A stretch of 64,000 bases of DNA from Phlyctochytrium arcticum (Eukaryota > Chytridiomycota > Chytridiomycetes > Chytridiales > Chytridiaceae): contig JAHLKI010000027.1 in NCBI GenBank assembly GCA_025602905.1, positions 1 through 64,000 on the forward strand, written 5' to 3'. A program made the translations under genes and the position numbers. Positions 11,887 to 46,927 of the stretch are shown one piece after another. How positions within the stretch are numbered: position 1 is the stretch's first letter; each line of letters begins with the position of its first letter. The notes beneath the pieces were generated by a model, which was given only the letters and a program-made list of their open reading frames with translations, searched no databases and was not told where the DNA came from.

Positions 11887-11897
11887 TTAGGGTTAGG
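11887..11897 (+). repeat. Telomeric tract TTAGGGTTAGG (left flank of the array)
   Basis: Reads TTAGGG on the plus strand at the boundary between unique DNA and the B0 remnant. It is the expected orientation for a right-hand chromosome end. Confidence 0.85.
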
Positions 11898-11947
11898 ATG
11901 TGAGGAGAGTGTTATTTGAGAGCATGCAGATATACAGAACATATCTA
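11898..11947 (-). mobile_element. B0: about 50-bp 3' terminal remnant of a family B non-LTR element
   Basis: Matches the last about 50 bp of B1, B2 and B3 (GAGAGTGTTATTTGAGAGCA, then the ATATACAGAACATATCTA stretch) with one mismatch, and stops abruptly where the next TAGGGTTAGG begins. The extreme 5' truncation is what aborted target-primed reverse transcription leaves. Confidence 0.8.
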
Positions 11948-11955
11948 GGGTTAGG

Positions 11956-14900
11956 AATAACGGTTCTTATTAGGCTGGAGGCAATGTAGATACATCAGGT
12001 ACTATCTAAATGACTAAAGTAATCAAGCTACATAGAGAAATGTCCAAAAAAAAGTGAAAACAAGTATAAATGGTCGAAAAAGTAGCATAAATACGCCGTG
12101 AAACACGCCAAAGCATGGCCAGGATATGTCCAGTAACTCCAAAGAATAGTGTGGGAACTTGCAAATTCTCATGGAATGGGCAATTTTTGGGAGGAAACTT
12201 GAAATTTGAGAGAAAAGTTGAAATGGTGATAAAGGAAGTGAGGACCAGAGTTGTTAGGAGAGTTAACCGGCGTGCGCAGAGTAGTGCTGAGTTGAAATCA
12301 AGGGGCAGCAGGCTTGCTTTCTGAAAAAACTTTGTGGTAAGGTGGGAAAATGTGGAAAAAATGTCAACTTCATGCCTTGGGCATGATGAGAGAGCTTGAA
12401 AATGGTGTGTGCGGGGATTGCCATAGTCTACAAATGGTGTTACGGGAAGCTGTGCCGAGTTTGAGGTCATTTGAGTGATTTTTGATGGAGTTGGAAAAAA
12501 TGAGGTATTGATAGTGTTTTCCCATATTTTGCAGAAGTCATATTAGAATGAACAAATACGGCAGGAGGATGATGAGATTTCGCCCACAGTTGCCGGCATG
12601 GGTGGTGTATGGGGTGGTGGGGTCATACTGGCTGGATGGGCGCATTTCAGGGAGCGCAGTATGAGGGAAGAGGTGTTTTTTGTGGATGTCTGGTCTTGAA
12701 GAGCTGAAGGCAGGGAGAGATGATGGGCCTCACTAGTACATGTAGTAGTCGGAGCCAGGGCGGCTGTTGTTCATTGAGAGCCCAGATCGACTTAGGGACA
12801 GGAGACCACAGCAGGAGGAGAGAAGCGTGGGAAAAAAACGAAACTGGGTGATGTCGAGTCAACAACCGGCCAGAGACGGTCGACGCACATGCCCCATGGG
12901 CTGGCAAGCGGGGACGTGGATGAGTTGACTTAAGAGCATACCGCATTAGCACCAAAAGTGAGGCCAGGAGGGGAAATCGGGTGTTTTGCCGAAATAGTAG
13001 ATTGCAAGACTTGAGGTATTGAATTCCAGTCAAAATGAGGCAAACTGATACTAGGGTATTCCATTTGGGTACCATTTCGAGGCTGGGACGAAGTCCCAGA
13101 ACGAGAAATGCATTTTGGAATTTGATGGGTTTTATTGTTGGTGGGTGGAGATGAATGCCAAGAGGATAAAGAGATTTTTGATGGGGGGGTAGTTGGAGAC
13201 ACAAGAGTAGGCAGGGTCTTGTTGGACACAGTGTTCTAGTGTTAGGTGGTGTTGTTGGCCATCTTGTGGATGTTTTTTGTGAGGATGTCTATGAGGCAGG
13301 TGTGCTGAGGGTGGTACATGGTGTAAATTGGCCTTGGGAACTCGGGGTGGTGGGAGTGGGACCATAGACACAGTTTTTCCAATGAGGTGGTAGAGTAGGT
13401 GACCAGAGGCGCCCAGTATGTTCCATATGGATCATGGAAAGTTGAGTTCCAGAGTGTGGGAGAAAAGTCGCGATTTTTCAGACAGAAACTCTTGCTACTA
13501 GAATAAGACACTACCAAAGTAGCATGAAGAGCACCGTAGCGTGTGGGGCGATGATTGGCCATTAGCGCCCGACTCCGTAGATCCATAAATGGACAAGATG
13601 GCATGAGAAATACCGCCAAACAGCACAAACCCGGCCCTGGCAAGGAAAGTGATAATGGGCAGTGGGTTCTGGCACAGGGGGTGGTAGGGGGTACATAGAC
13701 GGTGGTTTGGGGCCAGTTGTAGGTCATCCAGGTCGAGACTCAGGGGACAGGTGGCCAGGGATAAAAATTCCAAAAATTTCGGGCTGTCCTCCAGACTAGG
13801 TAAACTTGATGAGGACTGAAAGGGGCATGCTGAAAGTGGTACCAGAGCTGGAACCGGGTACGGGGCGAGGGCGGGTATAGTCAAAAGTCCGTTGTCTTGA
13901 TGCTCCTGCCTGATTCCAGGTGGTATGCATGGGGCTGGGTTGACATGGAAAAAGTTGATGAAAAAGGCTTGAGAGGGTGGCATATGCCGTATATACGGAT
14001 GGGGAAGGTATAGACGGTTCTTTAGGTGACATGCAAGCGTGTCCAAGTGCAAAGCTGTGGGTAAGGTGTCCAATCACAGGAAATACTAAAAATTCCCGCC
14101 ATCCTCCAGACTAGGTAAAGTTCCTGTTGAGGTGTGATAAAGGGCCCATGATTGCACAGAAGTTGCAGGTGGGTATGGTGGGACATTTGTTGCTGTTGAT
14201 TGGCGGTTTGCATGCCCCGTTCTTGATTTGGGGGTTGGTGCGGGTGGTGTTGAGGGTGGGTAGATGATAATGATGAAAACCACTGGACAGGGTGCCATAT
14301 GTCACAGTGTTTGATAGAGGGGGTGTTGAAGGTGGTGTGGGTGAGATTTGGGTCCAACTGGAGCAAAAAAAGTGGTAAAAAGTGCTGGAGATTGCGAAAG
14401 TCATAAATGCTCGGTTTTTGAGAAATATTTCTAAGTCCCAATACCCAGAAGCGTGATTGGCATGTACTTCATGGCAATGGGGTCCCATAAGCCCAATTCT
14501 TCACAGATACTGGAGAGCACCATTTCCGACTATAGGGTGGAGCTTGGGAGTGTTGTTATAGGGTAATTCTCGAGGTTGTCATAGGTGCTGCTGTCTTGAT
14601 AAACAAAGCTGCCAAATTTGAGACATGTGCATTCCAAAATTGCAAATTTTCAACATGAGCCTAGCCGTTCTGGGAGTTGAAGTGATGGATGTAGGGCATT
14701 TTGGAGGTCATACTTTTGCTCCTTGAGGTGGGGTTTGGTTGGATATTAACAAACTTTACCCAAGGGAAGCCGTTTTATCGGCGATCAGTGCAAACTAGTG
14801 GTACAGGCACTCCCCTGATTCAAATGGAGCATGAGTTGCAGAAACCTGACTTTGAAGGGTCGAGAAAAGAAAATTTGATGGTGTGGGGGTGGTGGGAGGA

Positions 14901-15120
14901 AAAAGGCAATCATCAAATTTGGGTACCAAATGCCAATAATGGGAGTGAGATTGTGAATGATTGTAGCAAGGAGTTGATAAGGGAGAGTCCAGAGCAGTAA
15001 GTAGCTGAAGACTAGCAGTTTGATGGATTGTTGGTGAGAGGAAGTTGTGGTGTTCTTGGAGGTGAGGTGATGCCAGTTGTAATTGGGATAGTCTGAAGTT
15101 GATTGAAGCGGAGATCTGGA
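11956..15120 (-). other. Very long 3' untranslated region of A1
   Basis: About 3.2 kb between the ORF2 stop and the 3' terminus, conserved in A2 (24673-27838). Frames inside are open on the minus strand (for example 12006-12470) but show no domain. There are diverged internal repeats: TCCTCCAGACTAGGTAAA occurs at about 13788 and again at about 14101. It also carries a 17-nt perfect hairpin sequence at 13083-13099 that is shared with family B. Confidence 0.75.
13083..13099 (-). repeat. Hairpin element CTGGGACTTCGTCCCAG in the A1 3'UTR
   Basis: Perfect inverted repeat: 7-bp stem with a 3-nt loop on the sense (minus) strand. The same 17 nt occur in A2 (25800-25816) and twice in each family B 3' region (17438-17454, 17487-17503; 33783-33799, 33832-33848). 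Flanking sequence differs between A and B. Confidence 0.8.
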
Positions 15121-17002
15121 TTACATAATCACACCGATGGCCGCTGGAAAGTGAAGGGCGGTATTGGGGGGAGAAGCGGGTGACAGGGCAGATGAAAAGG
15201 GGGCCGCCGAAGGGATCACACGACCTGCCGGTGGGCGTAGTGCTTCTTGTTCCAAAGGGTCACCCCATTCCTCGTCCATCAACTGTCGGTATACAATTTG
15301 AAGCAAGACCGCAAATAAATATCCGTCGGCATGGTTTACCACGCAATCCAATGCACTGTACAGTTCCGTATCCAGTTTCTTGTCCAAGAGCCGTTGTCGA
15401 TCCTTTAATAACCATTCCGAAATCCGCGGCCATTCTGCATGAGTCTCAAAGAACGGGAGCGCACATTCAATCATACAGCGGCGATTCACCCAACGGCGGC
15501 AGATATCACACTTCTTCCTTGACATAAGGACGTTTTCCCGCCACTTGATGGCCCATGGTCGGAGGACTGGAGGTTGCAGATAGAAGACGGAGTCAACATA
15601 ACTCTGGGGGCGCCGGTACAGAATGTAGTTTGCCAGTGGGGAGCCTGCCGGTCCTGAATCAAAACGTCGGTACAGTAACTGGTCCAAATTTGATTTTCGA
15701 ACATAGGACCGCCAGCTAATTGGATTTTCTTCTGGTGGTGAGGCCGCAACAACAGCACGCCAAGCGATCACGTCAGTAGGTGGTAGCAAACATCGAGGAA
15801 GAACTGCATCGATAGATAGTAATGGCGTGACGGGGGCCGCAATGGATGGCAAAGAGAACAAAGGATTGGATTGTGGCATCTTTTCCAAATGCAAAAAGTA
15901 GGAGCCCACCATATCAACAGCCCGATGGCTCCACTGTCCTAGCGCACTCATGCTCTCATGTAACTGTTGCGGTGCGAGTCGGCCAAATATCCAATCGAGG
16001 GCCTCGCAATGAAGCTTCTCTAATCCCGTACGCAACGGCAATCGACGGGGATCAGCACCAGACCATATCCAGAAGGGAGGAAGACCGAAGTCTGTATGTG
16101 ACCGAACGAAAGTTTTGTACAGGGTAAGTCGCACCACCACTGGCCAGAGATTTCCGCTAATCATCAGAGCTTTAAGCATTCGAGTAGCCTTGCCAAGACG
16201 GATATCCAGATGATCTTTCCACATAATTCCTTTTGCCCCCGTCGGAAATCCAAGGTATTTGTAATTTTCAACCTTGGGTACAGACTTGCTGGCTAATAGA
16301 AGAGTAGGCGGGCCGGAAGCATCCCACTTGTCCTTCCAAACCACGCCGCACTTGCTATTATTGAACTCCATCCCGTTTTCCGCTGCCCATATGGTACAAA
16401 CATCCAGAAAGAGTTGTGCTTCCCTGATATCAATTGGCTGGAGTTTGATATCATCGGCATAGGCAAGAGATGGGGGGAATTTGCGGATGGTCAAATCTGT
16501 CATAGTATCCATTGTCAATAGCAAAGTGTCAATGAAAACATTGAATAACAGTGGTGAGACGAGTGACCCTTGAAACAGTCCACATTCACGCGAAACAGAT
16601 GGCGTGAGTTCACCGTTGACAACGAAACGAGAGGATGGCTCGCGGCACATTAAACTATAGACAAGTGCAACCGCCCACACTGATGCTCCTGCTTCTTTCA
16701 CCCGCTCAAGTAAACGAGAATGCGGGACTCTATCATACGCGGCCTTTAGGTCCAAGTAAATAGAGATGTCAGAGCCCAGACGAATACTTTCACTCCCAAT
16801 GAGCGCTTGGGTAATAGCCGAATGCCGTGAGCGAAAGCCGCCCTGTCCAGGATGGACTTTGGCCCAATCTTCACCATGCCACACAGTCAATACTCTTTTC
16901 TCGAAAAGCCGACGCAGGACACAAGTATTGGCAATAGGCCGAGTGTCGGCAGGTCCAACGAGATCACCATCCACTTTGGCTGTCAAGGTCACATTTGCAG
17001 AG
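15121..17002 (-). pseudogene. A1 ORF2 fragment (reverse transcriptase and C-terminal part)
   Basis: The readable frame keeps the RT domain and beyond: KVDGDLVGPADTRPIANT, GGFRSRHSAITQAL, YLDLKAAYDRVPHSRLLE, GLFQGSLVSPLLFNVFID, the catalytic YADDIKLQ, and the zinc-knuckle-like CDICRRWVNRRCMIEC near the C-terminus. The N-terminal endonuclease and the start of the RT region are missing because of the 5' truncation at 17002. The remaining frame has no stop, so loss was by truncation and not by decay. It translates almost identically to the intact copy in A2. Confidence 0.9.
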
Positions 17003-17015
17003 GGTTAGGGTTAGG
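17003..17015 (+). repeat. Telomeric tract between A1 and B1
   Basis: GGTTAGGGTTAGG on the plus strand, joining the truncated 5' end of A1 to the 3' end of B1. Confidence 0.9.
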
Positions 17016-17060
17016 ATGTGAGGAGAGTGTTATTTGAGAGCATGCACATATACAGAACAT

Positions 17061-17081
17061 ATCTATCTATAAGACTAACTA
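17061..17081 (-). promoter_or_regulatory. Conserved 3'-tail motif (B1)
   Basis: Sense strand GTTAGTCTTATAGATAGATA, about 45 nt before the telomeric terminus. The core TTAGTC, 2-3 nt, TAGATAG occurs at an equivalent place in A1 (12001-12020), A2 (24718-24737), B2 (33406-33426), B3 (38739-38760) and C (46830-46853). A role in recognition of the RNA by the element's own reverse transcriptase is inference. Confidence 0.6.
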
Positions 17082-17437
17082 GAAAAAACGAGAAAAAGGA
17101 GCAAAAAATGATAAAACTACGAAAAAAGGCGATTTCAGACTGGAGCCCGGCAGTGGGGAGGAACGGTGAGTGAGGGGGAGTAATCCAGAAAGATGCGCAC
17201 GGCAAAGAGCGTTAAGATGTCCTAAGACACCTTATGTGCAAGGGTGGGTGAATGGGTCGAGAAAACGCGAAAAATGGTGGTAAGAAGGGACTTGGGGTTT
17301 GGAGGGCATTTCAGCCTGAGAGACGCGTGGCCCGTGCTTGGGAAGATGTGGTGGATGAGGTAGAGCAGCGGGGCAGAGGTGGAGGCCGAGGTGGTGGTGA
17401 GGGAGGTGATGTAGCGGTGATGGCAACAATTCCAGAG

Positions 17438-17503
17438 CTGGGACGAAGTCCCAGAGTAGAAGACGGTGGTGGTAACAATTCCAGAGCTGGGACGAAGTCC
17501 CAG
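17438..17503 (-). repeat. Paired hairpin elements in the B1 3'UTR
   Basis: Two copies of CTGGGACTTCGTCCCAG (sense) at 17438-17454 and 17487-17503, 49 bp apart, each preceded on the plus strand by ACAATTCCAGAG. In B3 one copy has a single change that alters only the loop base and leaves the stem intact (38317-38333). Confidence 0.8.
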
Positions 17504-17796
17504 AGTAAAAAAGGATGGTCGGGGAGAGTGTTGCGTGGTCTGGGGGAGGTCGAAGGCCGGGTGGTATTAATGATGGGGATGGCCAGGACGTGGGGTAGCG
17601 GGGGTTGCACACAGCGGTGATTTTGGTGAAGGGCCCGATGGAATTAGTGATGGGGATGGCCAGGAGGTAATGGGGATGAGAAATGCGTGGGAGGGGTGAA
17701 TGCAGGCTGCGCGGTGCCGATGGTAACGGCATACGCCGGGAGATGATGTGGGGAGAGTTGTCGGTGGGAGAGAAGGCGTGGAGGGTTGCTGTGTCC

Positions 17797-20700
17797 TTAT
17801 CCAATGCCGGTGATGGGAAGGCCGATGTATTTGGTGGAGGGGAAGGTCGCGGCCGTGTGGTTGTTGTGATGGCGAGGGTGGTGGGGATATGGGTGAAAGC
17901 GCGGGGAGGTCGTGGCGGTGATGCAGCGGGCGAGGGGACGCGCGCGGGCTTCAGTGGAGGCATCATGCGGTGGTGGGAAGGAGGGAAGGACGGAGGGCCT
18001 TTCTTGAGGAGCTGGGGCCGTGACCGTGGTGGGGATGGGTGGTTGGAGTTGGTAGGATGCGCGACGAGACCCGTGAGGGCGTCGGTAGCGGTAGCGGTGA
18101 TGTTGGGTGGGATGGGAAGGTTGTTGTGGTGGTAGCGGCAAGTGGGGGAGCGGTGGGCGTGATGGGGGCGCGGTCCGGGGTGAGGAGGATGCGGTGTGTG
18201 CGGGGGTATTATCAGAAGCCGTGGGGAGTGCTGGGGTATCTTGGGAAGAGCCTGTGTTGCTGGGGGTATCGGGTATGTTGCGGGGAGGGGAATCATCTAC
18301 ACTACTTACTATTCTACTACTAGGGGGAGGGGGGGATGGCGGTGCTTGGTCTTGGATGTCGAGGTTGGCAGAGGTCCAGGATTGCATGGTCGTGTAGAGG
18401 AGAGTGAAGTTGTCGTAGTCTTTGTGGTTGAGCGTCTCGTCGAGGATGTTGTAGTGGGGGGCGTGGTAGCCGCGTTCGCGGAGCTTCTTGCGTTGGGCGA
18501 GCGTGTTGGTGAGGTGGGTGATGATGGCGGGGGTGGTGATGTCGCGGAAAGGGTTGCAATCGACGATATGCCCGCGGGTAAGGCGTTGGCGGCAGATGGG
18601 ACATTGGAGATGGGGGTTGAGGTTGTTGAGGCGCCAGCGAACAATCTGGCGGGCGAGGGAAGGAGGGCGTTGGAATATGCCAGTATCGGCGCCGACACCG
18701 TGGCCAGTCCTACAAGTGTTGCTGATGGAGTTGGCGAGGATAGACGGGTTGGCGAGAAACCCATTGCGAACGGAGCGGGCGGGTATAGATCGGTTGTCGA
18801 GGGGGTGGGTGCTGGAGGAAAGGGTCGCGCGGTGTTGGAGGATGCGGTCACGGCGAAGGAATTTCTTCCAAGTAAGACGGGGGCCGGTGAAGCTGGGGGG
18901 GTATGCATTGACAATGTTGTTGTAGGCGGCGAGGAGTGGTTGAGTTTGGAGACGGAGCCGAGGGATGATTTCACCGAGGGACCATGGGCCACACTCGGGA
19001 AAGCGGGCATTCACTACGGCCCAGGGGGAGGTGGCGGAGAAGGTGTTGTTGTAGGAGGAGAGGCGGAACGCGAAGGATGCAGCAAACTCGGTCATCTTGC
19101 GGACGGGGTTGGTGAGAGAGGTTAGTGATTCCATTGTTGCGAGGGACGTGGCGGAGGAGGTGTTGAAGATCCATTCCAGGGCGGTGCGGTGGTTGGTGGT
19201 GAGGAGGGTGAGGAGAGATCGTTGAACATCTGGCGGTTGACCATCCAGCCATAGGCCGAAGGCCTCCATACCATAAGTACAGAGCGATTGGATGAATGTG
19301 CGGTAGATGGTGAGTTTGGTGCCGGGGGTCCAGGCCTGGCCACGCATCATGGTATAAGAGAGAAGGCGGTCGGCTTTGGTGGTGGTGGTGGTAATGAACT
19401 TGGGCCAGTTAATGCCGCGACGGGTATGGGGGTATCCTAGGTACTTGTATTCGGAGACGTGGGGGAGGAAGCCATCTTGGAGGGGGAGAACGGCATCGGG
19501 TGGAGCGCCAATAATGCCACATTTAGCCAGTCCAAACTTCAGAAAATTCGCATCGGCCCATGCCTCACAGAGGGCGAGTGAGGTGCGGATGGTGGGGAGG
19601 GTAGCGGCCTGGAGTTTGATGTCGTCGGCAAAGAAAAGGGCGTTGGGGAGGTTGTTGTTGGGAAAGTCGTTGGTGGGCGCAAGGATAACGGCGAGCGGGT
19701 CTATAAACAGGTTGAAGAGGAGAGGGGAGAGAACCGATCCTTGGAAGAGTCCGCGGATGATGGGGATGGGGTCGCAGCGGGTTCCATTGACTACCGCTAC
19801 GGTGGACATGAAGCGGCAGAACAGCGCGAACACTAGACTTAAGTCGCGGCGAGGGGCGCCACGCCCAGCCAGAACTTGCATCAGGTGTCGATGTGGGACA
19901 TGATCGTACGCACCCACCACGTCGAGAAAGACCTGAAGCTGGGCACCTAGTCTACACGAGGCGTCGGACGCGAGAGCTAGGTGGGTCGATCCTTGACGTC
20001 GCTGGAATCCGCCTTGAGAAGGATGAACTTTGGCCCACGGGCGGCCACGCCAGGCGCGATGGAGACGTCCTTCAAAGATACGGCGGAGAATTTGAGTGAG
20101 GGAGATGGGGCGACAAGCAGAAATACGAGAGTCGGTGGTGGTTTTGGGGATGAGTACAAGTTTACTGGTATTCCAACATTGCGGGGTTGCCCCCACAGCG
20201 AGGAAGTGACGGAAGATGGCAGTAATGTCTTGTTCGAAGGTGGTGGAGTAGGTAAGGGTGGTGAGGAGAGTTTGATGGAGGCCGTCGGGCCCTCCGCTAC
20301 GGCACTTGGGGTATCGACGGATGGCATCACAGATGGAGGTGAGGGAGAAGGCGCGGCGTTCGGCATGGGATAGTTCGTAGGTGAGGGAGCCGCCTGGGTC
20401 GTCTGGAGGCGTTGATGAGCAGGTGGAGAAGGTGGTGGAAAAGCGGGCGGTGGTAGCGTCATTGGGCGTGAGGTTGGCATCACCGCTGGTGAGTGTGGGT
20501 TGAAGGCCACGGCGGGAGCGTTTGAATGCACGGATGGCGGCGGTAGTGGTAAGGGGGTCATGGAGGTCGGTGGTGGAGATGGGGATGACTTCGGTTGATT
20601 GGGGGCGGGACTTGGCGCGGGAGACGCTGTAGTAGCCGAGGGTATGTTGAGCAACCGAGAGGAGGGTATCTTGAAGAGCTAGACCAAGGGTATCAACGGT

Positions 20701-21663
20701 GGAACACACAGCGGCACGGTCGGATAACGGTGTTTCTTCGGCAGAGGCCAGAGCGGTAAGTAGTGGTCCCCGAAAGGCTAAGTACTTCTGACATACACGT
20801 TCGCACACGTCGGTCCGAACGAGGTCGCGCAGATGGATAGATCGGCTTTCTGACGCGGCCCCGTCCACTCCCCACCAACCAGGAGGATAATTAACCGGAC
20901 GTCTTTCTCCGGGCCTGGCTGATGGTGAGTGCCCGCTAGCTAGAGTCTGGAGGGGAGAGGGAAGAGAAGAGAGTTCGAGAGACATTAGTCCATGATCAGA
21001 GCGAATGACATTACGATAGTAGCCCCAGTCCGGAACTAGTCCAGGCTGTGCAAACACGAGATCTGTTGTAGTCTTGCCGTGGGTAGGTCGGGTATGAATA
21101 AGGTCGTGGGTATCGGTGATGGTGAAGATGGTATCGCGCCGGCCAGGCTCGGTGGTAGTGGAATCATTGGTGAGAGCGCCCAGACGGATATTAACGTCGC
21201 CAAGGAGAATATGGGGAGGGGGATGTTGTGTGAGGATGGTAGTGATAGTATCGTCGTCGAGGCGGGGAGGGAGGTACACAGCGCGGATGATGTGGTGAAA
21301 GTACCGGAAGGTAATTGAGAATTCACTGACACCGATGAGGGAGACATGGTGTTGGTAGAGGGGAGGGACAACAAGAATCAGACCACCATTTTGATGGCCG
21401 ACGGTGCGCGCTGTTGCGGGGAGGGTAGAGCTGGCCATGATCCAGTTACAAGACGTAGCATTCCTGGGCACGCCCCACGTCTCTGCAACGACGAGGGCGC
21501 CCCACTGCCAGCGGTCAAAAAGCTCCTTGAGTGTGGTATATTTGGCATCACTTAGTCCTTGGGCATTGACATAGGCGAGGGTATATGGGAGACGAGGTAT
21601 ATGGTCGGGGGGTATAGGGGGAGGATCGTGGTCTCTGTCGCGGGGTGGAGTTTGGCTAATCAT
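17797..21663 (-). CDS. B1 ORF2: endonuclease-reverse transcriptase (1288 aa)
   Basis: Nicks target DNA and copies the element RNA from the nick (target-primed reverse transcription). The N-terminal AP-type endonuclease has LAYVNAQGL, VVAETWG, GHQNGGLILVVPP, LLGDVNIRLG and RSDHGLMSLEL. The RT follows with RPISLTQILRRIFE, VFLDVVGAYDHVPHRHLM, RGLFQGSVLSPLLFNLFID and the catalytic FADDIKLQ. A CCHC-type knuckle (CPICRQRLTRGHIVDC) comes next, then a long Pro/Ser/Thr-rich tail of about 200 residues not seen in A or C. The start ATG overlaps the ORF1 stop as ATGA at 21663-21660, so ORF2 is probably made by termination-reinitiation. No RNase H motif was found. B2 carries an apparently identical partial copy. 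Confidence 0.9.
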   Translation of the reverse strand: MISQTPPRDRDHDPPPIPPDHIPRLPYTLAYVNAQGLSDAKYTTLKELFDRWQWGALVVAETWGVPRNATSCNWIMASSTLPATARTVGHQNGGLILVVPPLYQHHVSLIGVSEFSITFRYFHHIIRAVYLPPRLDDDTITTILTQHPPPHILLGDVNIRLGALTNDSTTTEPGRRDTIFTITDTHDLIHTRPTHGKTTTDLVFAQPGLVPDWGYYRNVIRSDHGLMSLELSSLPSPLQTLASGHSPSARPGERRPVNYPPGWWGVDGAASESRSIHLRDLVRTDVCERVCQKYLAFRGPLLTALASAEETPLSDRAAVCSTVDTLGLALQDTLLSVAQHTLGYYSVSRAKSRPQSTEVIPISTTDLHDPLTTTAAIRAFKRSRRGLQPTLTSGDANLTPNDATTARFSTTFSTCSSTPPDDPGGSLTYELSHAERRAFSLTSICDAIRRYPKCRSGGPDGLHQTLLTTLTYSTTFEQDITAIFRHFLAVGATPQCWNTSKLVLIPKTTTDSRISACRPISLTQILRRIFEGRLHRAWRGRPWAKVHPSQGGFQRRQGSTHLALASDASCRLGAQLQVFLDVVGAYDHVPHRHLMQVLAGRGAPRRDLSLVFALFCRFMSTVAVVNGTRCDPIPIIRGLFQGSVLSPLLFNLFIDPLAVILAPTNDFPNNNLPNALFFADDIKLQAATLPTIRTSLALCEAWADANFLKFGLAKCGIIGAPPDAVLPLQDGFLPHVSEYKYLGYPHTRRGINWPKFITTTTTKADRLLSYTMMRGQAWTPGTKLTIYRTFIQSLCTYGMEAFGLWLDGQPPDVQRSLLTLLTTNHRTALEWIFNTSSATSLATMESLTSLTNPVRKMTEFAASFAFRLSSYNNTFSATSPWAVVNARFPECGPWSLGEIIPRLRLQTQPLLAAYNNIVNAYPPSFTGPRLTWKKFLRRDRILQHRATLSSSTHPLDNRSIPARSVRNGFLANPSILANSISNTCRTGHGVGADTGIFQRPPSLARQIVRWRLNNLNPHLQCPICRQRLTRGHIVDCNPFRDITTPAIITHLTNTLAQRKKLRERGYHAPHYNILDETLNHKDYDNFTLLYTTMQSWTSANLDIQDQAPPSPPPPSSRIVSSVDDSPPRNIPDTPSNTGSSQDTPALPTASDNTPAHTASSSPRTAPPSRPPLPHLPLPPQQPSHPTQHHRYRYRRPHGSRRASYQLQPPIPTTVTAPAPQERPSVLPSFPPPHDASTEARARPLARCITATTSPRFHPYPHHPRHHNNHTAATFPSTKYIGLPITGIG

Positions 21664-37055: not shown

Positions 37056-38023
37056 ATGGGTTTCTCGCCAACCCGTCTATCCTCGCCAACTCCATCAGCA
37101 ACACTTGTAGGACTGGCCACGGTGTCGGCGCCGATACTGGCATATTCCAACGCCCTCCTTCCCTCGCCCGCCAGATTGTTCGCTGGCGCCTCAACAACCT
37201 CAACCCCCATCTCCAATGTCCCATCTGCCGCCAACGCCTTACCCGCGGGCATATCGTCGATTGCAACCCTTTCCGCGACATCACCACCCCCGCCATCATC
37301 ACCCACCTCACCAACACGCTCGCCCAACGCAAGAAGCTCCGCGAACGCGGCTACCACGCCCCCCACTACAACATCCTCGACGAGACGCTCAACCACAAAG
37401 ACTACGACAACTTCACTCTCCTCTACACGACCATGCAATCCTGGACCTCTGCCAACCTCGACATCCAAGACCAAGCACCGCCATCCCCCCCTCCCCCTAG
37501 TAGTAGAATAGTAAGTAGTGTAGATGATTCCCCTCCCCGCAACATACCCGATACCCCCAGCAACACAGGCTCTTCCCAAGATACCCCAGCACTCCCCACG
37601 GCTTCTGATAATACCCCCGCACACACCGCATCCTCCTCACCCCGGACCGCGCCCCCATCACGCCCACCGCTCCCCCACTTGCCGCTACCACCACAACAAC
37701 CTTCCCATCCCACCCAACATCACCGCTACCGCTACCGACGCCCTCACGGGTCTCGTCGCGCATCCTACCAACTCCAACCACCCATCCCCACCACGGTCAC
37801 GGCCCCAGCTCCTCAAGAAAGGCCCTCCGTCCTTCCCTCCTTCCCACCACCGCATGATGCCTCCACTGAAGCCCGCGCGCGTCCCCTCGCCCGCTGCATC
37901 ACCGCCACGACCTCCCCGCGCTTTCACCCATATCCCCACCACCCTCGCCATCACAACAACCACACGGCCGCGACCTTCCCCTCCACCAAATACATCGGCC
38001 TTCCCATCACCGGCATTGGATAA
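37054..38023 (+). pseudogene. B3 ORF2 C-terminal fragment
   Basis: Begins within the C-terminal region of ORF2 (NGFLANPSILANSISNTC follows the junction in frame), includes the CPICRQRLTRGHIVDC knuckle and the Pro/Ser tail, and stops at 38023. RT and endonuclease are absent. Confidence 0.85.
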
Positions 38024-38804
38024 GGACACAGCAACCCTCCACGCCTTCTCTCCCACCGACAACTCTCCCCACATCATCTCCCGGCGTATGCCGTTACCAT
38101 CGGCACCGCGCAGCCTGCATTCACCCCTCCCACGCATTTCTCATCCCCATTACCTCCTGGCCATCCCCATCACTAATTCCATCGGGCCCTTCACCAAAAT
38201 CACCGCTGTGTGCAACCCCCGCTACCCCACGTCCTGGCCATCCCCATCATTAATACCACCCGGCCTTCGACCTCCCCCAGACCACGCAACACTCTCCCCG
38301 ACCATCCCTTTTTACTCTGGGACTTTGTCCCAGCTCTGGAATTGTTACCACCACCGTCTTCTACTCTGGGACTTCGTCCCAGCTCTGGAATTGTTGCCAT
38401 CACCGCTACATCACCTCCCTCACCACCACCTCGGCCTCCATCTCTGCCCCGCTGCTCTACCTCATCCACCACATCTTCCCAAGCACGGGCCACGCGTCTC
38501 TCAGGCTGAAATGCCCTCCAAACCCCAAGTCCCTTCTTACCACCATTTTTCGCGTTTTCTCGACCCATTCACCCACCCTTGCACATAAGGTGTCTTAGGA
38601 CATCTTAACGCTCTTTGCCGTGCGCATCTTTCTGGATTACTCCCCCTCACTCACCGTTCCTCCCCACTGCCGGGCTCCAGTCTGAAATCGCCTTTTTTCG
38701 TAGTTTTATCATTTTTTGCTCCTTTTTCTCGTTTTTTCTAGTTAGTCTTATAGATAGATATGTTCTGTATATGTGCATGCTCTCAAATAACACTCTCCTC
38801 ACAT

Positions 38805-38815
38805 CCTAACCCTAA
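38805..38815 (-). repeat. Telomeric tract between B3 and C
   Basis: Reads CCTAACCCTAA on the plus strand, the opposite orientation to every tract left of 37054. Confidence 0.9.
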
Positions 38816-38819
38816 GAAC

Positions 38820-39947
38820 ATGGACCAATTCAACGATGCGCTGAATGCTCGGTTGGAGCGGATCGATGAACAGTTTGAGCGCAAGTTGGAGGAAAGGATG
38901 GCTGCCCAGTTTGGTGCGAGTCAGAAGCAAAAGCAAGGAAATCAATCAGTCAAGAAGGCCTCGGGGGAAAAGAAACAAGCAGCTCACCCCCCAATTACCC
39001 CTGTCATCGCGCCCCCAACGCCACAACATATAACCCGAATCCCAGCTCAGCCCCCGGCTATACCCGCTCCTCCTGCTAAGCGCAATAGGCTTCCTCGGGT
39101 AAACACGGAACAACGTGCTCGGATAGAACAAGCGGCGGGTCAGAATGGAACCATTGCCAATGGAACAAACTCTATCGCAAACCAGAGCCGTGGTACAGTT
39201 CCACCAGCCCCACTTTCGAAGGCCGCCGCGAGTTCGTTAACAGAACAAAACGGCTGGGTCCCAGTTCCTTCTCCCAAGCGAAATGTCTCGTCCCGCAATG
39301 TCGCCGGTCCTGAAAATGACACTAGAGGCCGGCCAACTTTTGCCGACATAGCGTCTCGCTTCAATGATGAAAAAACGCAGAGCGATGTCCGTGCTGGTCT
39401 TTTGATGTTGGAAAAGGAATCGAAAGCCGCCATTGAAGCTCGCCAAAGACTGCGAAAGCAGCATACCCCAGAAGAGGAATCGAAGCATGAGTTAAAAAGA
39501 GTGTATATCTCTAACTTTCCCCGCTTGCCGTTTGGTAAAGTAAAGAAGGCGATGTATGCCTTCCATATCCGCCTGACTCAGATTCACAACCTCTCGTGGG
39601 TTGGTAACACCCTTGAAGTTTTGATCGATGCCCACTACAAGCCGGCCTTCTTGGCGCATCTCGAAAGACTGCAGTTCGACGTGGATCATTCATTTGACCC
39701 ATTGTCTGACAACCCTGCTAGCCTCAATGGTGCGCCGCGTGGTAATGCGGTAAAGCACTTTCTCCAGCGGGCGTCTGATATTATCAACAGGTCAACTAAA
39801 TCAAGGACAGCGGATTACTTTAGTGATTGGAAAGATGAGGTCTTGGCTAGACCATCTTCTTCTCCGTCGCGTCCCCCCTCTGTCCCCATTGATTTGGAGC
39901 CCGATCACTCATCTGCCGATTTGGAAGACGCTGAGTTCTCTGAATGA
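38820..39947 (+). CDS. C ORF1: RNA-binding protein (375 aa)
   Basis: The start MDQFNDALNARLERIDEQFE opens a probable coiled coil. The frame also runs upstream into B3 sequence, but that is another element. PTFADIASRF near residue 180 matches the PSFAQI..RF block of A and B ORF1, and YAFHIRLTQIHNLSWVGNTL matches the RRM-like block of A ORF1. There is no N-terminal zinc-ribbon Cys cluster, so this ORF1 is about half the length of those of A and B. It ends EFSE with TGA at 39945-39947, overlapping the ORF2 ATG as ATGA. Confidence 0.8.
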   Translation: MDQFNDALNARLERIDEQFERKLEERMAAQFGASQKQKQGNQSVKKASGEKKQAAHPPITPVIAPPTPQHITRIPAQPPAIPAPPAKRNRLPRVNTEQRARIEQAAGQNGTIANGTNSIANQSRGTVPPAPLSKAAASSLTEQNGWVPVPSPKRNVSSRNVAGPENDTRGRPTFADIASRFNDEKTQSDVRAGLLMLEKESKAAIEARQRLRKQHTPEEESKHELKRVYISNFPRLPFGKVKKAMYAFHIRLTQIHNLSWVGNTLEVLIDAHYKPAFLAHLERLQFDVDHSFDPLSDNPASLNGAPRGNAVKHFLQRASDIINRSTKSRTADYFSDWKDEVLARPSSSPSRPPSVPIDLEPDHSSADLEDAEFSE

Positions 39948-42900
39948 TTGATACATCGATTGGATATATCAATGCCCATGGAATGGATGCAAAGAAATTC
40001 CACACATTCATTGATCTGCTAGACGACAACACGTATGACATTATTATAGTGGCCGAGACCTGGTTTGTTGATTGGACATATGTCAAGGCACACCCCTATT
40101 CCCAATGGTGGTCTTACTATCCATCAACTCCCCGCACCACAGGCCATCAGAACGGCGGACTATTAGCCATTGTCCACCCTCGAGTTCAATCCCATATCAA
40201 CTTCACCTCAAAATCCGAACACTCACTGACAATCTCCCTCTACAACACACCCTTCCATTTTGTCTACCTCCCTCCCTCTCTTCCCGAACCCAGAGTCTCA
40301 TCAACTCTCTCACCTCAAACGACGCCGTCCCCCGTCGCTATTATTGGAGATATCAATGTTCGTCTGGGTCAAAAGACCGGCGATTCAGCGAAATTCAACA
40401 ACCACCCAGCACCTCGCGCGAAGACATTTTGGACTGCGGCATCCCGTCAAAGTATGCGATTGATTCCTACCGCAAGCGGTCTGAGCCGGGTTGATCATAT
40501 CCTGGCCAAAGATATTGATCTAGAATGGCATTATGTTCCTAGTCCGGTTGAGTCAGATCACGACATGATGCAAATTCGGTGGAGACATTCACCGATAACA
40601 CCGCTTACACCGCCTGACACGCAAGAATCTCCCACACGTCGTCTCTTCACAAAGTATCTGTCTGATGAACGGATTCAAAGAAAACTCATCCAGCTGTATG
40701 ATCTGGATGAGCTGAAATTGACGCACGCCCTGACTCGTTTGAAAAGTGATGGCCCGTCTTTTTCTCTCGATGAACGTCAAGAAGTGATTGATGTTGTGGG
40801 TGAAGCTCTGTCTCTTTGGATCTTTGACGTTGGTGAACGTGTTCTCGGTTCGTATGTCCCTTCGGAGGCAAAGAAGAGACCGGACAAGATGGCAGAAGGT
40901 CTTCGTATGATTACCAATGCTAATACCGCGACCCGTTTGTTCAAAAGGAGTATGCGCGGGAAGCAGCCGTGTATTGGTACGGACGATCCCAGTGTCTCGG
41001 CAATGGAGGCCGTCACGTCCCATTACTCCGATATTTTCAAAAGCCCGTCACCTAATCCCTCTCTTGCCCCATACTGCCCGGAACAGTATGACCAGCAAGC
41101 GGAGGATATGGCCAAAAAAATTAGCGATTGGGAGCAGGTGGAGAAAGTTATCCAGTCTTACCCTTCTGACAAGAGTTCTGGTCCGGACAATGTCCCTCCA
41201 GTGTTATTGAAGGCTTTGATGAGTAGCAAAGTCTTCGCAACGCATATCTCTTTATTCTTCTTTTTGTGTGTCCGGTTGGGGACCACGCCGCTCTGTTGGA
41301 ACTCTTCAAACGTAACGTTATTGGCTAAGGTGGTGGGCGACAAAGTCGCCCCTGAGGATACCCGGCCAATATCAAACACTTCGGTGTTGCGTCGTTTGTT
41401 TGAACGTCGTGTTTTGTCAGCGTGGGAGAAAGAGTCTTGGACTGATGTTCATCCCGCGCAAGGTGGTTTTCGCTCGAGGCATGCAGCAACAACTCAAGCT
41501 TTGGTCAGTGACGAAAGTATTCGCTTAGGGGCGGATATTTGTATTTACCTCGACTTGAAAGCTGCCTATGACCGCGTGCGGTTTCATTTAATTTTGGAAC
41601 GCGCCGAGCAGGCCGGAGCCAGTGTGTGGGCTCTCGCTTTGATTTCGAGTATGATGTGTCGGCTGCCGTCTTCTAGATTTGTCGTGAACGGAGCTTTGAC
41701 CGGTCCCTTGGAGCGGGAATGCGGTTTATTTCAAGGTTCACTTCTTTCACCGCTTTTATTCAACATTTTCATTGACTCGCTCTTGTTGATTATTAACGAC
41801 TTCACGGACATTGGATCTCGACGCTTCCCCCCTATTTTGGGTTATGCCGATGATCTGAAATTACAACCGCTAGACATTGCAGAAGCTCAGATGTTCTTGG
41901 ACGTTTGTTCAGGATGGGCTACTTTGAATGACATGTTATTCAATAACAAGAAATGTGGGATCACTTGGAAAGGTAGCTGGGACGCGGACGGACCGCCGGA
42001 ATTGATACTTTCTGGTAAGGCCGTGCCAAATGTCACTAGTTATCGGTATCTGGGTTTCCCCACATCATCGCGCGGAATTATCTGGACAGAACATTTGGAG
42101 GTGCGATTGACCAAGGCAGACAAAATGCTCAAGGCGTTGACGCTCAGCGGAGACTTGTGGTCTGAAAATGTCCGCCTGACATTATACAAGATCTTTGTGC
42201 GTTCTCACACTGACTTTGGTCTACCTGCTTTCTGGGTCTGGAGTATGTATGATCCCGTTCGGAAACAATTACGGGATGGTTTGGAACAACTTCACATTCG
42301 CGGTCTGGAATGGATCTTTGGAAGATTGGCACCGCGCGGATTGCATGAAAGCATGTCAGCTTTGGGCAGATGGGATCACCGTGCGGTGACCATGATCGGA
42401 TCATACTACATTCATCTGGACCGAATGCCGCGCTCGAACCCTTTGTTTCATTTGTCGTCTGTTGTCAACCCTGGAGTCTCTGAGTTATCTATTAATGCCA
42501 TCTTGCCACGGTGTTTGCGGAAACCTGTGGAGATAGAAGCTTGGATGACTGCCGTCGGTGTCGCGGATCTTAATGAAGGGGAACGTCCCCGGATTGGTTG
42601 GAAGTCTTGGATCAGAAAGAAGGGCGTTGAAGATATTGTTCAACGTCGAGTCAATCAAACTGGTCCTGGAGCACAACTACCGGCTTACATTCTCAACCGT
42701 CGGCCTGCCACCTACATCGATCGTGCTTTCTGGATTCAGCCTGTCGCGCTCCGTTCATGGGCTTTGCATTGGCGGGAGAACACGATGATGGGTCGAAAGA
42801 TGTGCGGTGTGTGCAAGAGAGCTGCCAACCGCCGGTGTATGATCACATGTGCGATGCCTGGTTTTGAAGCGCTCGCGGAATGGTCTCAGTTGGATACTTG

Positions 42901-43153
42901 GATTACATTCGACAAGAAGCGGCTTCATTTGGCAAACCTGGACGGTGAACTGTATTCGGCTGTGGACGCCGCGTTGAATCACGGCGACGGATATTTGTTT
43001 GCGCGCCTTCTCAAGTCTGTTTATACCGATCTCTTTGAAGAAGAGTGGGGTGATGCCGAGGAGCAGAAAGCACTGACGAGACCACCACCTGCTCTTCCCC
43101 AACCGTCAGTGGCCGAGCTGCTCCCATCCCCCATCTCGTCTGGTTCCTCTTGA
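39944..43153 (+). CDS. C ORF2: endonuclease-reverse transcriptase (1069 aa)
   Basis: The endonuclease has SIGYINAHGM, IIVAETWFVDW, GHQNGGLLAIVHP, AIIGDINVRLGQ, SRVDHILAKD and ESDHDMMQIRW. The RT has SSGPDNVPPVLLKAL, TRPISNTSVLRRLFE, GGFRSRHAATTQAL, YLDLKAAYDRVR, GLFQGSLLSPLLFNIFID and the catalytic YADDLKLQ. The Cys knuckle CGVCKRAANRRCMITC lies near residue 950. Intact throughout, no RNase H motif seen. It resembles A ORF2 along its whole length, so A and C look like sister families with B more distant (judged by eye). Translation is probably coupled to ORF1 through the ATGA overlap. Confidence 0.93.
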   Translation: MIDTSIGYINAHGMDAKKFHTFIDLLDDNTYDIIIVAETWFVDWTYVKAHPYSQWWSYYPSTPRTTGHQNGGLLAIVHPRVQSHINFTSKSEHSLTISLYNTPFHFVYLPPSLPEPRVSSTLSPQTTPSPVAIIGDINVRLGQKTGDSAKFNNHPAPRAKTFWTAASRQSMRLIPTASGLSRVDHILAKDIDLEWHYVPSPVESDHDMMQIRWRHSPITPLTPPDTQESPTRRLFTKYLSDERIQRKLIQLYDLDELKLTHALTRLKSDGPSFSLDERQEVIDVVGEALSLWIFDVGERVLGSYVPSEAKKRPDKMAEGLRMITNANTATRLFKRSMRGKQPCIGTDDPSVSAMEAVTSHYSDIFKSPSPNPSLAPYCPEQYDQQAEDMAKKISDWEQVEKVIQSYPSDKSSGPDNVPPVLLKALMSSKVFATHISLFFFLCVRLGTTPLCWNSSNVTLLAKVVGDKVAPEDTRPISNTSVLRRLFERRVLSAWEKESWTDVHPAQGGFRSRHAATTQALVSDESIRLGADICIYLDLKAAYDRVRFHLILERAEQAGASVWALALISSMMCRLPSSRFVVNGALTGPLERECGLFQGSLLSPLLFNIFIDSLLLIINDFTDIGSRRFPPILGYADDLKLQPLDIAEAQMFLDVCSGWATLNDMLFNNKKCGITWKGSWDADGPPELILSGKAVPNVTSYRYLGFPTSSRGIIWTEHLEVRLTKADKMLKALTLSGDLWSENVRLTLYKIFVRSHTDFGLPAFWVWSMYDPVRKQLRDGLEQLHIRGLEWIFGRLAPRGLHESMSALGRWDHRAVTMIGSYYIHLDRMPRSNPLFHLSSVVNPGVSELSINAILPRCLRKPVEIEAWMTAVGVADLNEGERPRIGWKSWIRKKGVEDIVQRRVNQTGPGAQLPAYILNRRPATYIDRAFWIQPVALRSWALHWRENTMMGRKMCGVCKRAANRRCMITCAMPGFEALAEWSQLDTWITFDKKRLHLANLDGELYSAVDAALNHGDGYLFARLLKSVYTDLFEEEWGDAEEQKALTRPPPALPQPSVAELLPSPISSGSS

Positions 43154-46100
43154 GGTCTTTGTCTTTCAGCATTTCGCCATTCCTCAAGATTCCGCTCCAA
43201 ACCGTGATTATGTCAGCACCAAATCTCAACATTCAACAGACAAGCGAGCCTTCCCAAATCAACATTAATCAACGGATCATCACCTTTTCGACATCTATCA
43301 TACCCTACTCCTCAACACACCCCACCACAACCCTTTCAACCTCCACCCTGCGAAAGCAGGTCCCTCCTCGTCAATTACCCGTGCCTCACAACCACGTCGC
43401 GCGGGTGCTTTGGGCACGCCGCCGGCATTGACGAGTCGATCACCCTCCATCATCCCCATACCACTCCCACTCCTCCTCTCAACTCTCGAGATACCCTTTG
43501 CGGGCCGAGCGGTGCAAGTCCGCCGGCCGTTGGTGCTCTGGACGGGTTTCTTTGTCAATTTCGCTGTTTCGGATAAGTATCCTACCGCATTCCTAATATT
43601 CTCTTAATTGACATTGTCCCGACCGGTCCCCAACCTGCAGTTTATCAAATGGCACGATGTTTTCTATCAACCCACGAAACTACTTACTTATTGAGGCTCT
43701 TTTGGCGAAGTTCGAAATTTTGGGCGAATTCGACCGTCAGCAACGTATTTTTCATCATCCCACATCTCATCCCTCATCTTCTCCTCCAGTATACCTTCGA
43801 GTACATGTACCTACACCTTCTGGTCTCTTTGGTGCAGCATTGGAGCTACTCTCTGGATTTTTTGATATGAGGTCGGGTCGCGCGATATTTTTTCCGTTTT
43901 GAAAATTCGACACCATTGCCACAATCTCCCCCACAGCAACATCCCACGTGCACCATACGTTCGGCCTAGTGCCGGGCGTCACTGGTAGAAGTCTCAGCAA
44001 GAACGCTTATGCCTACGCCAACTTCCGCACATCACCCGCCACCCCCCCTACAACATCTATCCCATCCCTCCCCAACCTCTGTGCAGGGCCGAAAGGTGCA
44101 CCATACGTTCGGCCGCGTGCTGGGCGTCCCTGGTGAAAGTCCGAGTAAGCAAGCTCATGTTTCCATCAATTGTCGCACATCTCTCGCCACCCCCCCTACA
44201 CCCTTCACCAAACACCGTTCCTACCACTGAAACTTCGGTTTCTGCTCCACGCTCCCACTCTTTTACTTTCTCTACTGCCTACTGGTCATTTGCTGCAGTG
44301 AAAGACGGTGCGGCGAGCAAGTTGTATTGAAGGGACGGTATCGCGGCAATTTTGGGCTCAACCAATCTGGGACACTTCGCTTAATCGCGGGGTCTTCATT
44401 TGCGCCTAGATTTGCACCGCACCATCTCCTACACACTCTCCACCAACGACAATGTATCCAGCTTTGTATCTGCTGATTTCGCCAAGTTCACTCTCACATT
44501 GGCCGTAACGGTGGTGAAGTGCGGGAAAACGGTCACGGACGGCACACTGGGCCTCGTACTCCTCTTCAGACATCTTCTTTGACACTCCCTACTGCAACAT
44601 ATTCAAATCGCGCGGTCCCTCCTGGTGTTTGGGGCATTTTTGATTAAGTGCCTTTGTCCTGTCAATTTCTGATATTCTGCTCCTGGACAACAATTACTAG
44701 ATAAAGTGGGTCCGAGCGGTCTGCAACTTGGCAGAACGGATCTCCGGGCGTATCTCTCTGAAACCTTTGTCTTCGGTCTGCTGCTTTTGGACGCGTTACC
44801 TTTTTCGACATTTTTGCGACAACATTGGCCGACGTGCCGATGAATTTCACCAATTCCGCATTTTTGGGTCTACGGTCTCGACGTTCATTGTCTTGGTTCC
44901 TTTCACCATCCCATTTATGAAGAACTCGGTCGCTGTCGTCCAATCTGGGTTGCGCCATCTCCAACGACATGTCTGGTGCCAATCTGGCCGCGGCGTTGTT
45001 TTTCCCACGAAAATGGACCACTTGTCCTAAGTGTTTCCGTTCCGAAAGACCTGCAATTTCACCCACCCATTCAGCTACATCTCCCCCACCAAATATCCAT
45101 CACCCAGGCCTCTGTCCCTTCAACCTGGCTGTTTTCACCACACCCTCGGACATGCCCTCATACCATCGCGCAAATCCCTCATTTTCAGCTCCCCGACCGT
45201 GGCCTACATTTCTCTCGTCATCCCCAACACTCTTTGAAACTACCTATGCACCGTGGCGAGCCCCGCTGCAAGTTTCAATTTGGAAATGCTGGCGACATGC
45301 TGTTTCGGTTTTTGTCGCGACATTTTTTCCCACACGCACTTGGACCACTCGAATTAGGGAAAAATGTACCGATTTAGCTGCCGTTGATACCACACCACCA
45401 GCAACACCCCCCGCATCAACTCCCCGACATACAGGCCTCTGGCACGTCTCTTTGTTTGTTTTCACCACACCATCGGCCATGCCCTCATACCCCTCCGCAA
45501 ATTTCCTCCTTTTGACCACCCGGTCGCGGCCTGCTTCTCGCTCGTGCTCTCCAGTGCTCCCTGAAGCTTCCCCCGTGCCGCGGTGCGCCCCACCTCTGGT
45601 TTCAAGTTCGAAATGCTTTTGGAATGCTGCCACGGTTTTTCCGCGATTTTTCTGGTCCTGTCCTCCTTGACCACTCGACTTAAGGAAAATCCTCCCGATC
45701 AGCTCCAAAATCATACCTCATCTACTGCCACACTCCCCGCACCAAAGTACCTCTTCACACGCCCCTATGTCATGGTCTGGGCAACTTTGACTTTGTGCTA
45801 GTCCGTATGCGGTCCCATGTTCCTTTTTGTCTTGGGTTCAGAATGTCTTCGACATTCTGGGAGGAATTGTATATCGCGATTTTTTCCCACTCTGTCCGTT
45901 GACCACTTCAATTAAGTGATTCGTGTCGGATCCGGCTGAAACTTGGACCACACCTTCGTCAACACTCTCGCCACCAATTGCCCGCACGCCAGGACTCTAT
46001 CAAATTTTTTTTGGTCATCGTATTCAACCCCTCGGCGCGAAATTGTACCCTGGTCAAGAATTTCGCTTTTTCGACACTTTCGACACCTCATGCCCTTTCT

Positions 46101-46907
46101 TTGCCATCTACAAGGTCCTTCCAACGGCGCTGCACTCGTCCTAGTGCCCTGCATCGTCTTTGGTCTCGGAATTGCGCTCAACATGCCTCTGTACTGCGCA
46201 GGCCGATGCGCAGCACTGTACACGCTGTTCAAGTCCTGGCATAGTACAACTGACCTCATTCGACACCCACGCTCTCCGGCACCACCCTCAACACCTTTTC
46301 TATGCATTATCAACGTCCTAGCCGCCTGGCTTCATGTTTTTGATAGCATTTTCGGTCTTTTTCGCCATCCTCTCGCCACTACCTCATACAACGTCGCTGG
46401 AATGATATGCTCCTAATCATTTCCATTCAAGTCGGCGCCCTCTACAAGATTCACTACAGCCGAGAGTCAACATACCTCATCACTTTTGCCACCATCAACA
46501 CACTCGCCGCCTTTCTCTCGCCACAACCTCATACAGCCTTGCTGGCTCGATATGGCCCTAATCATTTCAATTCAACTCGGCTCCCTCTACAAGATTTGCT
46601 AAACCCGAATGGCAACATACCTCATCAGGTTTTCACCACACACTTCTTTTTGTCAACTTTCCCATGTTTTTTGGCTCCAAACCACCCAAGATCACTATGG
46701 ACTACTTCTGGATACCTACAGACATCATAGAGCGTACTTTCCGGCGTACCCTCCTATTTTTTCTAGTCGCCTACTCTCCTCCCAGACATTTTGTACTCTA
46801 GTTTTTCTATTTTCTATTTCTCTCTCAAGTTAGTTTAGTCTCTAGATAGATAGCTTGTGTCTCTACTTCTTGTACTTGTACACATACTCTTGAATTAAAC
46901 GAACCAT
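43154..46907 (+). other. Very long 3'UTR of element C, built from diverged repeats
   Basis: About 3.75 kb without a supportable gene. Internal direct repeats are visible: CACCATACGTTCGGCC at 43951 and 44099 (148 bp apart); CATGCCCTCATACC-like segments at 45151 and 45478 (327 bp apart), each preceded by GTTTTCACCACACC; ACCTCATACA segments at 46381 and 46526 (145 bp apart). The conserved 3'-tail motif is at 46830-46853. Several plus-strand open frames exist (for example 44969-45670) but none has a domain. Confidence 0.7.
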
Positions 46908-46927
46908 AAACCCTAACCCTAACCCTA
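46908..46927 (-). repeat. Telomeric tract, three CCCTAA units, right boundary of the array
   Basis: The longest telomeric tract in the window. It reads CCCTAA on the plus strand and directly abuts the interior of a copia gag gene. Confidence 0.9.

Follow-up and report, generated by a model that had tools for sequence, protein, structure and literature searches.

Introduction

In Drosophila, HeT-A, TART and TAHRE form head-to-tail terminal arrays with their 3′ ends facing inward, and their tails are oligo(A). SART1 and TRAS1 of Bombyx mori carry an APE-type endonuclease and two open reading frames (ORFs), and insert inside long TTAGG arrays. Targeting of telomeric repeats has been described for SART1 and TRAS1 (PMC7265360), and the retroelement telomeres of Drosophila are known to exist without telomerase (PMC5537684). 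MoTeR1 and MoTeR2 of Magnaporthe oryzae are non-LTR elements located at chromosome ends, with the 5′ end toward the terminus and short TTAGGG tracts between them (PMC7367193). As described there, truncated copies occur, blocks are shared in a BIR-like manner, relics are internalised by end joining, and interstitial tracts of at least three units are break-prone (PMC7367193). The FoTeRs of Fusarium oxysporum are telomere-associated as well, with the 5′ end outward and TAACCC tracts at the 3′ end, and the paper describing them attributes a restriction-like (REL) endonuclease to MoTeR1 (PMC12857005). The terms 'head-to-head' and 'fusion' are absent from the main text of the MoTeR paper (PMC7367193), as are 'chytrid' and 'fusion' from that of the FoTeR paper (PMC12857005). 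TTAGGG ends in a chytrid are documented in a paper on Batrachochytrium (PMC11797018). Among the open-access papers listed in literature searches, none was recognised by title or available abstract as dealing with head-to-head arrays or with chytrid telomeric retroelements. Here, a stretch of 64,000 nucleotides from the chytrid Phlyctochytrium arcticum (the window) is described, in which two opposed arrays of terminal type meet at one joint, one of the features expected of an end-to-end fusion.

Organisation of the window

The window starts at the first base of contig C27 (381,795 bp) and its left flank is therefore just 11,886 bp long. C-numbers designate contigs of the same assembly (31.5 Mb, 91 contigs), and T1 to T7 are family names coined in this analysis. 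In genome-wide sequence searches only the best candidates were scored. The following features were recognised.

1–11886, unstranded: left flank with SEC16-like gene, other repeats and Crypton-like ORF (Pfam, own-genome DNA search)
About 2247–6102, minus: SEC16-like gene (Pfam Sec16/TPR_Sec16)
About 6495–9936: other repeats of the left flank (own-genome DNA search)
9919–11277: Crypton-like ORF (Pfam NDC10_II and GCR1_C)
11887–11945, minus: 3′ stub of T1, last ~60 nt, with tail TTAGGGTTAGG (98% over 61 nt to the T1 3′ end)
11946–17002, minus: T2, 5′-truncated, telomeric tail at 11946 (99.6% to 24663–29720; RVT_1)
17005–24662, minus: T1, longest window copy (Pfam Exo_endo_phos_2 and RVT_1; same block in C46)
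24663–33349, minus: T2, longest window copy (Pfam Exo_endo_phos and RVT_1)
33350–37053, minus: long arm of T1, 3,704 bp, 5′-truncated at the joint (no difference to 17005–20708)
37053–37055, unstranded: head-to-head T1/T1 joint with 2-nt overlap (same joint in C50 and C8)
37054–38815, plus: short arm of T1, 1,762 bp, 5′-truncated (reverse complement of 33350–35111 and 17005–18766)
38816–46927, plus: T4, 5′-truncated at about 38814, with partial ORF1 and with ORF2 at 39944–43153 (Pfam)
46925–51477, plus: Ty1/copia element, broken on the 5′ side (Pfam; 99.4–99.5% to C50:63150–67744)
57000–60265, plus: right host gene, AZUL/HECT ubiquitin ligase (Pfam)

The original prediction placed the non-LTR elements on the minus strand left of 37054 and on the plus strand right of it. 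This was confirmed, as the reverse transcriptase (RT) ORFs on the left (15121–17004, 17797–21720, 27839–31180 and 34142–37636, all minus) and the one on the right (39944–43153, plus) all gave RVT_1 by Pfam. The ORF at 34142–37636 remains open beyond the joint at 37053/37054. In the longest T1 copy, ORF1 lies at 21660–23897, ORF2 with the endonuclease (EN) and RT at 17797–21720, and the tail at 17001–17015. Its 5′ end carries 18 copies of a 21-bp repeat (24287–24663, detected by TRF), which are also present in C46. The longest T2 copy contains ORF1 at 31083–33374 (stop to stop) and ORF2 with EN and RT at 27839–31180; further copies of T2 ORF2 were found in C3, C17, C46 and C50. The tail of T4, CCCTAACCCTAACCCTA, occupies 46911–46927. 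At the other end of this element, the T1 tail is joined to T4 at its 5′ cut, and C46 holds a near-identical copy of the first 542 bp of T4 that continues past the truncation. No element of the window is interrupted by another one with both halves retained.

Ordinary genes had been proposed on both sides of the arrays. The Sec16 and AZUL/HECT domains were indeed found by Pfam, but the proposed arrestin at 61368–63068 gave no Pfam match at E 0.01, and right of 46927 the array adjoins the truncated Ty1/copia element, not a host gene directly. Compared with the C50 copy, the LTRs of which are located at 63145–63313 and 67956–68123, this copia element is short of the 5′ LTR and of about 212 bp. The absent 5′ part does not occur at the left edge of the array. 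The nearest relatives of the AZUL/HECT protein come from Thoreauomyces and Geranomyces (57–59% identity in the best four matches). The SEC16-like protein used as query gave no protein match at E 0.001, in a search whose candidate list may have been filled by matches to its repetitive tail. The ORF at 9919–11277, combining NDC10_II and GCR1_C, presumably belongs to a Crypton-type recombinase element.

Genome searches with both flanks revealed no allele lacking the array among the best candidates. With the left flank, several repeats were found elsewhere at up to 95%, besides the SEC16-like gene in C35, of which a second copy extends over C35:196055–200667 at about 84–86% DNA identity. No such second copy of the HECT gene was seen among the best candidates of the right-flank search. 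The region 53417–56953 is a dispersed repeat with four more copies at 94–99% (C49, C29, C5 and C25), and neither of its two long ORFs matched a Pfam model.

Element families and their 3′ tails

In the longest copies of T1, T2 and T4, an APE-type endonuclease domain precedes the reverse transcriptase (Pfam). This is the pair of domains expected of telomere-associated non-LTR retrotransposons, and the class is assigned here by these domains. The ORF upstream of ORF2 in T1 and T2 had no Pfam match. ORF2 identity amounts to 31–32% between T1 and T2, 58% between T2 and T4, and 56% between T2 and T7. T1 and the T6 group (C57, C65, C66 and C6) share 57–58% in the best pieces of ORF2 and 40–55% elsewhere. 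Relatives of the T2 RT in a large protein collection are remote (at least 43 proteins, with 19–35% identity among the matches listed).

Probes for the 3′ ends of five groups were run on 322 kb consisting of the window and other regions of the genome. They gave 48 matches (T2, 14; T5/T4, 14; T1, 12; T7, 5; T6, 3), five of the T5/T4 matches sitting 29 nt from another one. TTAGG was found immediately before every one of the 48 recognised 3′ ends, with a telomere-matching run of 5–18 nt. The T4 end at 46927, which is devoid of the probe sequence, stands outside this count. Because some blocks are common to several contigs, the 48 tails correspond to 31 distinct junctions. The families are distant by ORF2 identity and all telomere-tailed; they therefore have one odd trait in common, the telomeric 3′ end. 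The 3′ ends directly adjoin either unrelated DNA or another element at its 5′-truncated end. No target-site duplication was detected in three arrays (C27, C50 and C6), the two sides sharing no word longer than 5 nt.

Telomeric tracts and telomerase

All seven telomeric tracts expected in the window are present, none of them displaced by more than 3 nt. They are short, with 10–17 nt and thus fewer than three units. The 11-mer TTAGGGTTAGG occurs five times, on the plus strand at 11887, 17005 and 33350 and on the minus strand at 38805 and 46912, while 100 shuffles gave a mean of 0.02 and none reached five. The 10-mer TAGGGTTAGG is located at 11946 and 24663. The 17-mer CCCTAACCCTAACCCTA has a single occurrence in the genome, at 46911 of the window, and its reversed control likewise one. 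For AGGGTTAGGGTTAGG, 17 occurrences were counted in the genome versus two for the reversed control; by position comparison, 15 of the 17 sites are element 3′ ends, and the remaining two are in C41 and C63.

The assembly contains no (TTAGGG)4. No telomeric array was detected in 40 end stretches of 500 bp from contigs C1 to C21 (starts of C1–C7 and C9–C21; ends of C1, C2 and C4–C21). Among these, the end of C8 matches an element and displays three scattered TTAGGG, and the other 39 have at most one TTAGGG or CCCTAA each. The genome is predicted to encode a telomerase RNA-binding domain (Telomerase_RBD at C19:314085–314640; best piece 46.6 bits, cut-off 25). A loss of the telomerase gene was rejected on this ground.

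Orientation of arrays and contig ends

The element 3′ end faces inward at 13 of the 15 boundaries examined between array and flank (two each in C27, C50 and C8; C3, C57, C17, C47, C28, C66 and C6:434571). At the two others, C6:414923 and C6:719489, the 5′ end lies against the flank. The count covers neither C17:135822 nor the arrays of C46, C65 and C75. Fourteen of the 15 flanks (286–601 bp; C8 end left out) were compared with T1, T2, T4, T5, T6 and T7; 13 were without match and the C3 flank showed a 26-bp match to T6.

Nine contig ends lie in an element, and seven of them have the 5′ end outward (ends of C3, C8, C46 and C57; starts of C28, C47 and C66). The orientation in C66 was derived from match positions, and the sample includes a minority of the ends of C22–C91. 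The exceptions are the start of C8, which is an inverted short arm, and the start of C75. These elements combine a telomeric 3′ end with a 5′ end that in most cases points toward the presumed terminus, which is characteristic of telomere-associated non-LTR retrotransposons. At C6:414922–414923 and C6:719488–719489, single-orientation arrays within a contig of 1.28 Mb have their 5′ end abutting non-element sequence; the junction at C6:719488–719489 is also present at the start of C65.

The T1/T1 joint and other head-to-head joints

At 37053/37054, a T1 copy that retains 3,704 nt up to its 3′ end meets an inverted T1 that retains 1,762, and no telomeric repeats are present there. The same joint, to the nucleotide, was found in C50 (about 77639, in the other orientation) and in C8 (1179/1180). 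C27, C50 and C8 do not differ in their long arms. The short arm of C27 has 3 substitutions in 1,762 that are absent from the other copies compared, all of them within 508 nt of the T1 3′ end. As these distinguishing bases end 508 nt from the 3′ end, the adjoining 1.25 kb up to the joint could derive from another copy. The C50 short arm has no substitutions, and that of C8 has seven differences, mostly indels, none of them farther than 205 nt from the contig end. The neighbours differ as well. In C27, the long arm adjoins the longest T2 copy and the short arm T4. In C50, the same truncated T2 lies on either side with different flanks and tails, and 3 substitutions and one indel distinguish the two arms over 8,855 positions. 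In C8, other sequence follows the long arm and the contig stops within the short arm.

It had been proposed that each half of the window looks like one capped chromosome end and that the window is the fused product. The first part is borne out: 5′ ends point outward, 3′ tails inward, no target-site duplication was detected, elements are stacked on truncated 5′ ends, and the copia element is broken. The halves thus have the anatomy of terminal arrays. The joint, however, is not private to this locus, which leaves the proposed fusion with partial support and speaks against the simple, single event that was first suspected. Finding the same two nucleotides three times is unexpected of independent fusions, and the T1 joint was therefore taken as one event that was multiplied. 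A single origin is most likely, with a later multiplication due either to the assembler or to recombination between ends. The data fit a real multiplication, through break-induced copying or recombination within identical T1, as well as overlaps made there by the assembler. The bases in which the arms differ speak against palindromic reads from a single molecule, but they do not speak against an assembler that joined ends via identical T1. Because the arms have distinct substitutions and the flanks differ, hairpins or missed adapters were set aside as an explanation of the whole pattern.

Other head-to-head joints exist in the genome. C17 contains a near-perfect T7/T7 palindrome with arms of 8,374 nt, 3 substitutions and a spacer of about 71 nt; its centre had no other match in the genome search, and the joint was seen in C17 only. 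To the right of this palindrome, C17:134028–135822 is a T1 fragment cut at both ends, with neither 3′ end nor tail. In C75 (6836–6852), two T7 copies are head to head with CCCTAACCCTAA between them, which resembles a residual telomere cap.

A block of 17 kb is common to C27 and C46. Tandem units of T5 of ~7.0 kb were observed at C46:111976–119482, C6:414923–434571 and C3:1715732–1731354. They are 99–100% alike where compared (C6 versus C46), with identical internal junctions in C46, C6 and C3. This likeness suggests recent block copying.

Origin of the joint

The window most likely shows joined ends, be it by fusion, ring closure or a copied inverted block, and not an original, private site of fusion. 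The preferred explanation, given a chance just short of even, is that retroelement-capped ends were joined 5′ to 5′ and that the T1 joint, after a single origin, spread by copying from end to end. That 37053/37054 is a real physical joint has, by our judgement, a probability of about one half. Element RNA with 3′ CCCUAA would pair with the handful of TTAGGG units that a chromosome end, or a broken, telomerase-tagged end, carries, and would be reverse transcribed there. The next element would be added on the eroded 5′ end, by which arrays would grow outward with their 5′ ends distal. Break-induced copying may then spread blocks between ends, as proposed for the 17 kb of C27 and C46 and for the T5 units of C3, C6 and C46. 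Uncapped, T1-terminated ends would have been end-joined once, giving the T1/T1 joint with its 2-nt overlap, and this joint would later have been copied into at least three places, C27 included.

The joining of capped ends is supported by the 3′ ends facing inward (13 of 15), the 5′ ends facing outward (7 of 9) and the tails (48 of 48), by the broken copia at the array edge and the lack of duplication in the C27, C50 and C6 arrays, and by the presence of one joint in C27, C50 and C8 with arms that are separate copies, the distinct C17 joint and the telomerase domain. The truncated copia, the cut T4 with a T1 tail attached and the lack of shared words are what the addition of elements to broken or terminal ends would leave. 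Against the joining of capped ends, one and the same joint is found in three contigs with different neighbours, which would require several recombinations if it is real but few overlaps by the assembler, and at least four head-to-head contigs (C27, C50, C17 and C75) imply many joined ends in one viable genome. The two C6 arrays with a 5′ end against other sequence and the tailless T1 fragment of C17 also speak against it, as do the C27 substitutions confined to 508 nt from the 3′ end and the C8 short-arm differences confined to 205 nt from the contig end.

An assembly join is the main competitor, placed somewhat below even. At least two true ends inside T1 would have been merged by an overlap assembler via identical T1 and one real or chimeric inverted T1/T1 molecule, and the block reused in C27, C50 and C8. 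In favour of it, three contigs hold the one joint, the T1 copies are practically identical, five contigs (C3, C46, C57, C8 and C47) stop inside T1 or T2, and T4 has a near-identical C46 copy over at least its first 542 bp. It is also favoured by C27, where no distinguishing base lies more than 508 nt from the T1 3′ end, and the seven differences in the outer 205 nt of C8, mostly indels, suggest thin coverage there. However, the distinct substitutions of the arms oppose palindromic reads of a single molecule, the distances from the joint to the T4/T1 boundary (1.8 kb) and to the C8 flank (3.7 kb) are spanned by ordinary long reads, and C17 and C75 carry other joints. An event at one locus, in which both ends of one double-strand break primed element addition and the cDNAs met 5′ to 5′, requires no fusion and predicts the 3′ tails on both sides and the missing duplication, as found. 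It is nonetheless improbable, for the absent 5′ part of copia is not at the left edge, the stacked elements on each side require repeated additions to lasting ends, and the same joint exists at other loci. Least probable are ordinary nested insertions in both orientations in a repeat-rich region, without terminal addition. Mobility and near-identity of the elements speak for this, as do partial matches in the interior of C4, C12, C41 and C63, but the orientation rule and the telomeric tails on all recognised 3′ ends oppose it, no window element is split with both halves kept, and the order of truncations in the window largely refutes it; ordinary nested TPRT insertion was rejected for want of target duplications in the three arrays.

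A wider proposal goes beyond the joining of capped ends at this locus: the chromosome ends of this chytrid would be capped mainly by several APE-type families, each with no more than some three telomerase-type repeats, and would be joined repeatedly, giving fused or ring chromosomes or copied inverted joints, and head-to-head arrays would be a tolerated part of the normal karyotype. This is considered unlikely.

Comparison with known telomeric retroelements

A chytrid in which several APE-type families have TTAGGG tails in common, next to a telomerase gene and to several head-to-head arrays, would bring Drosophila-like terminal arrays to an early fungal lineage and would document how chromosome ends capped by retroelements are joined in nature. 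Should the joints have been made by assembly, they would still be a warning: an assembler may merge chromosome ends through terminal elements that are identical.

HeT-A, TART and TAHRE resemble the chytrid elements in their terminal arrays with 3′ ends inward. In the HeT-A/TART system telomerase is absent, whereas the chytrid genome is predicted to encode Telomerase_RBD and the tails are of the TTAGGG type. SART1 and TRAS1 share the targeting of telomeric repeats, the APE-type endonuclease and the two ORFs; they reside in long TTAGG arrays, whereas the chytrid elements sit on non-telomeric DNA and no long array was seen. The MoTeRs, non-LTR elements at chromosome ends, resemble the probably terminal chytrid elements in orientation, short TTAGGG tracts, truncations, block sharing and, if the joints are real, internalisation by end joining (PMC7367193). 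The 21-bp repeat array at the T1 5′ end is reminiscent of the 5′ repeat tracts in MoTeR elements, and the short tracts in the C27 array fit the view, taken from the MoTeR work, that interstitial tracts of at least three units are break-prone. According to the FoTeR paper, MoTeR1 has a REL endonuclease, whereas the chytrid elements have, by Pfam domains, an APE-type endonuclease before the RT and a separate ORF1. The FoTeRs agree in telomere association, outward 5′ end and telomeric tract at the 3′ end (PMC12857005), and differ by their REL endonuclease and single large ORF from the APE-type chytrid elements with ORF1 and ORF2. MoTeRs and FoTeRs, as described in these sources, are thus ascomycete elements with REL endonucleases, whereas the chytrid case involves several APE-type families.
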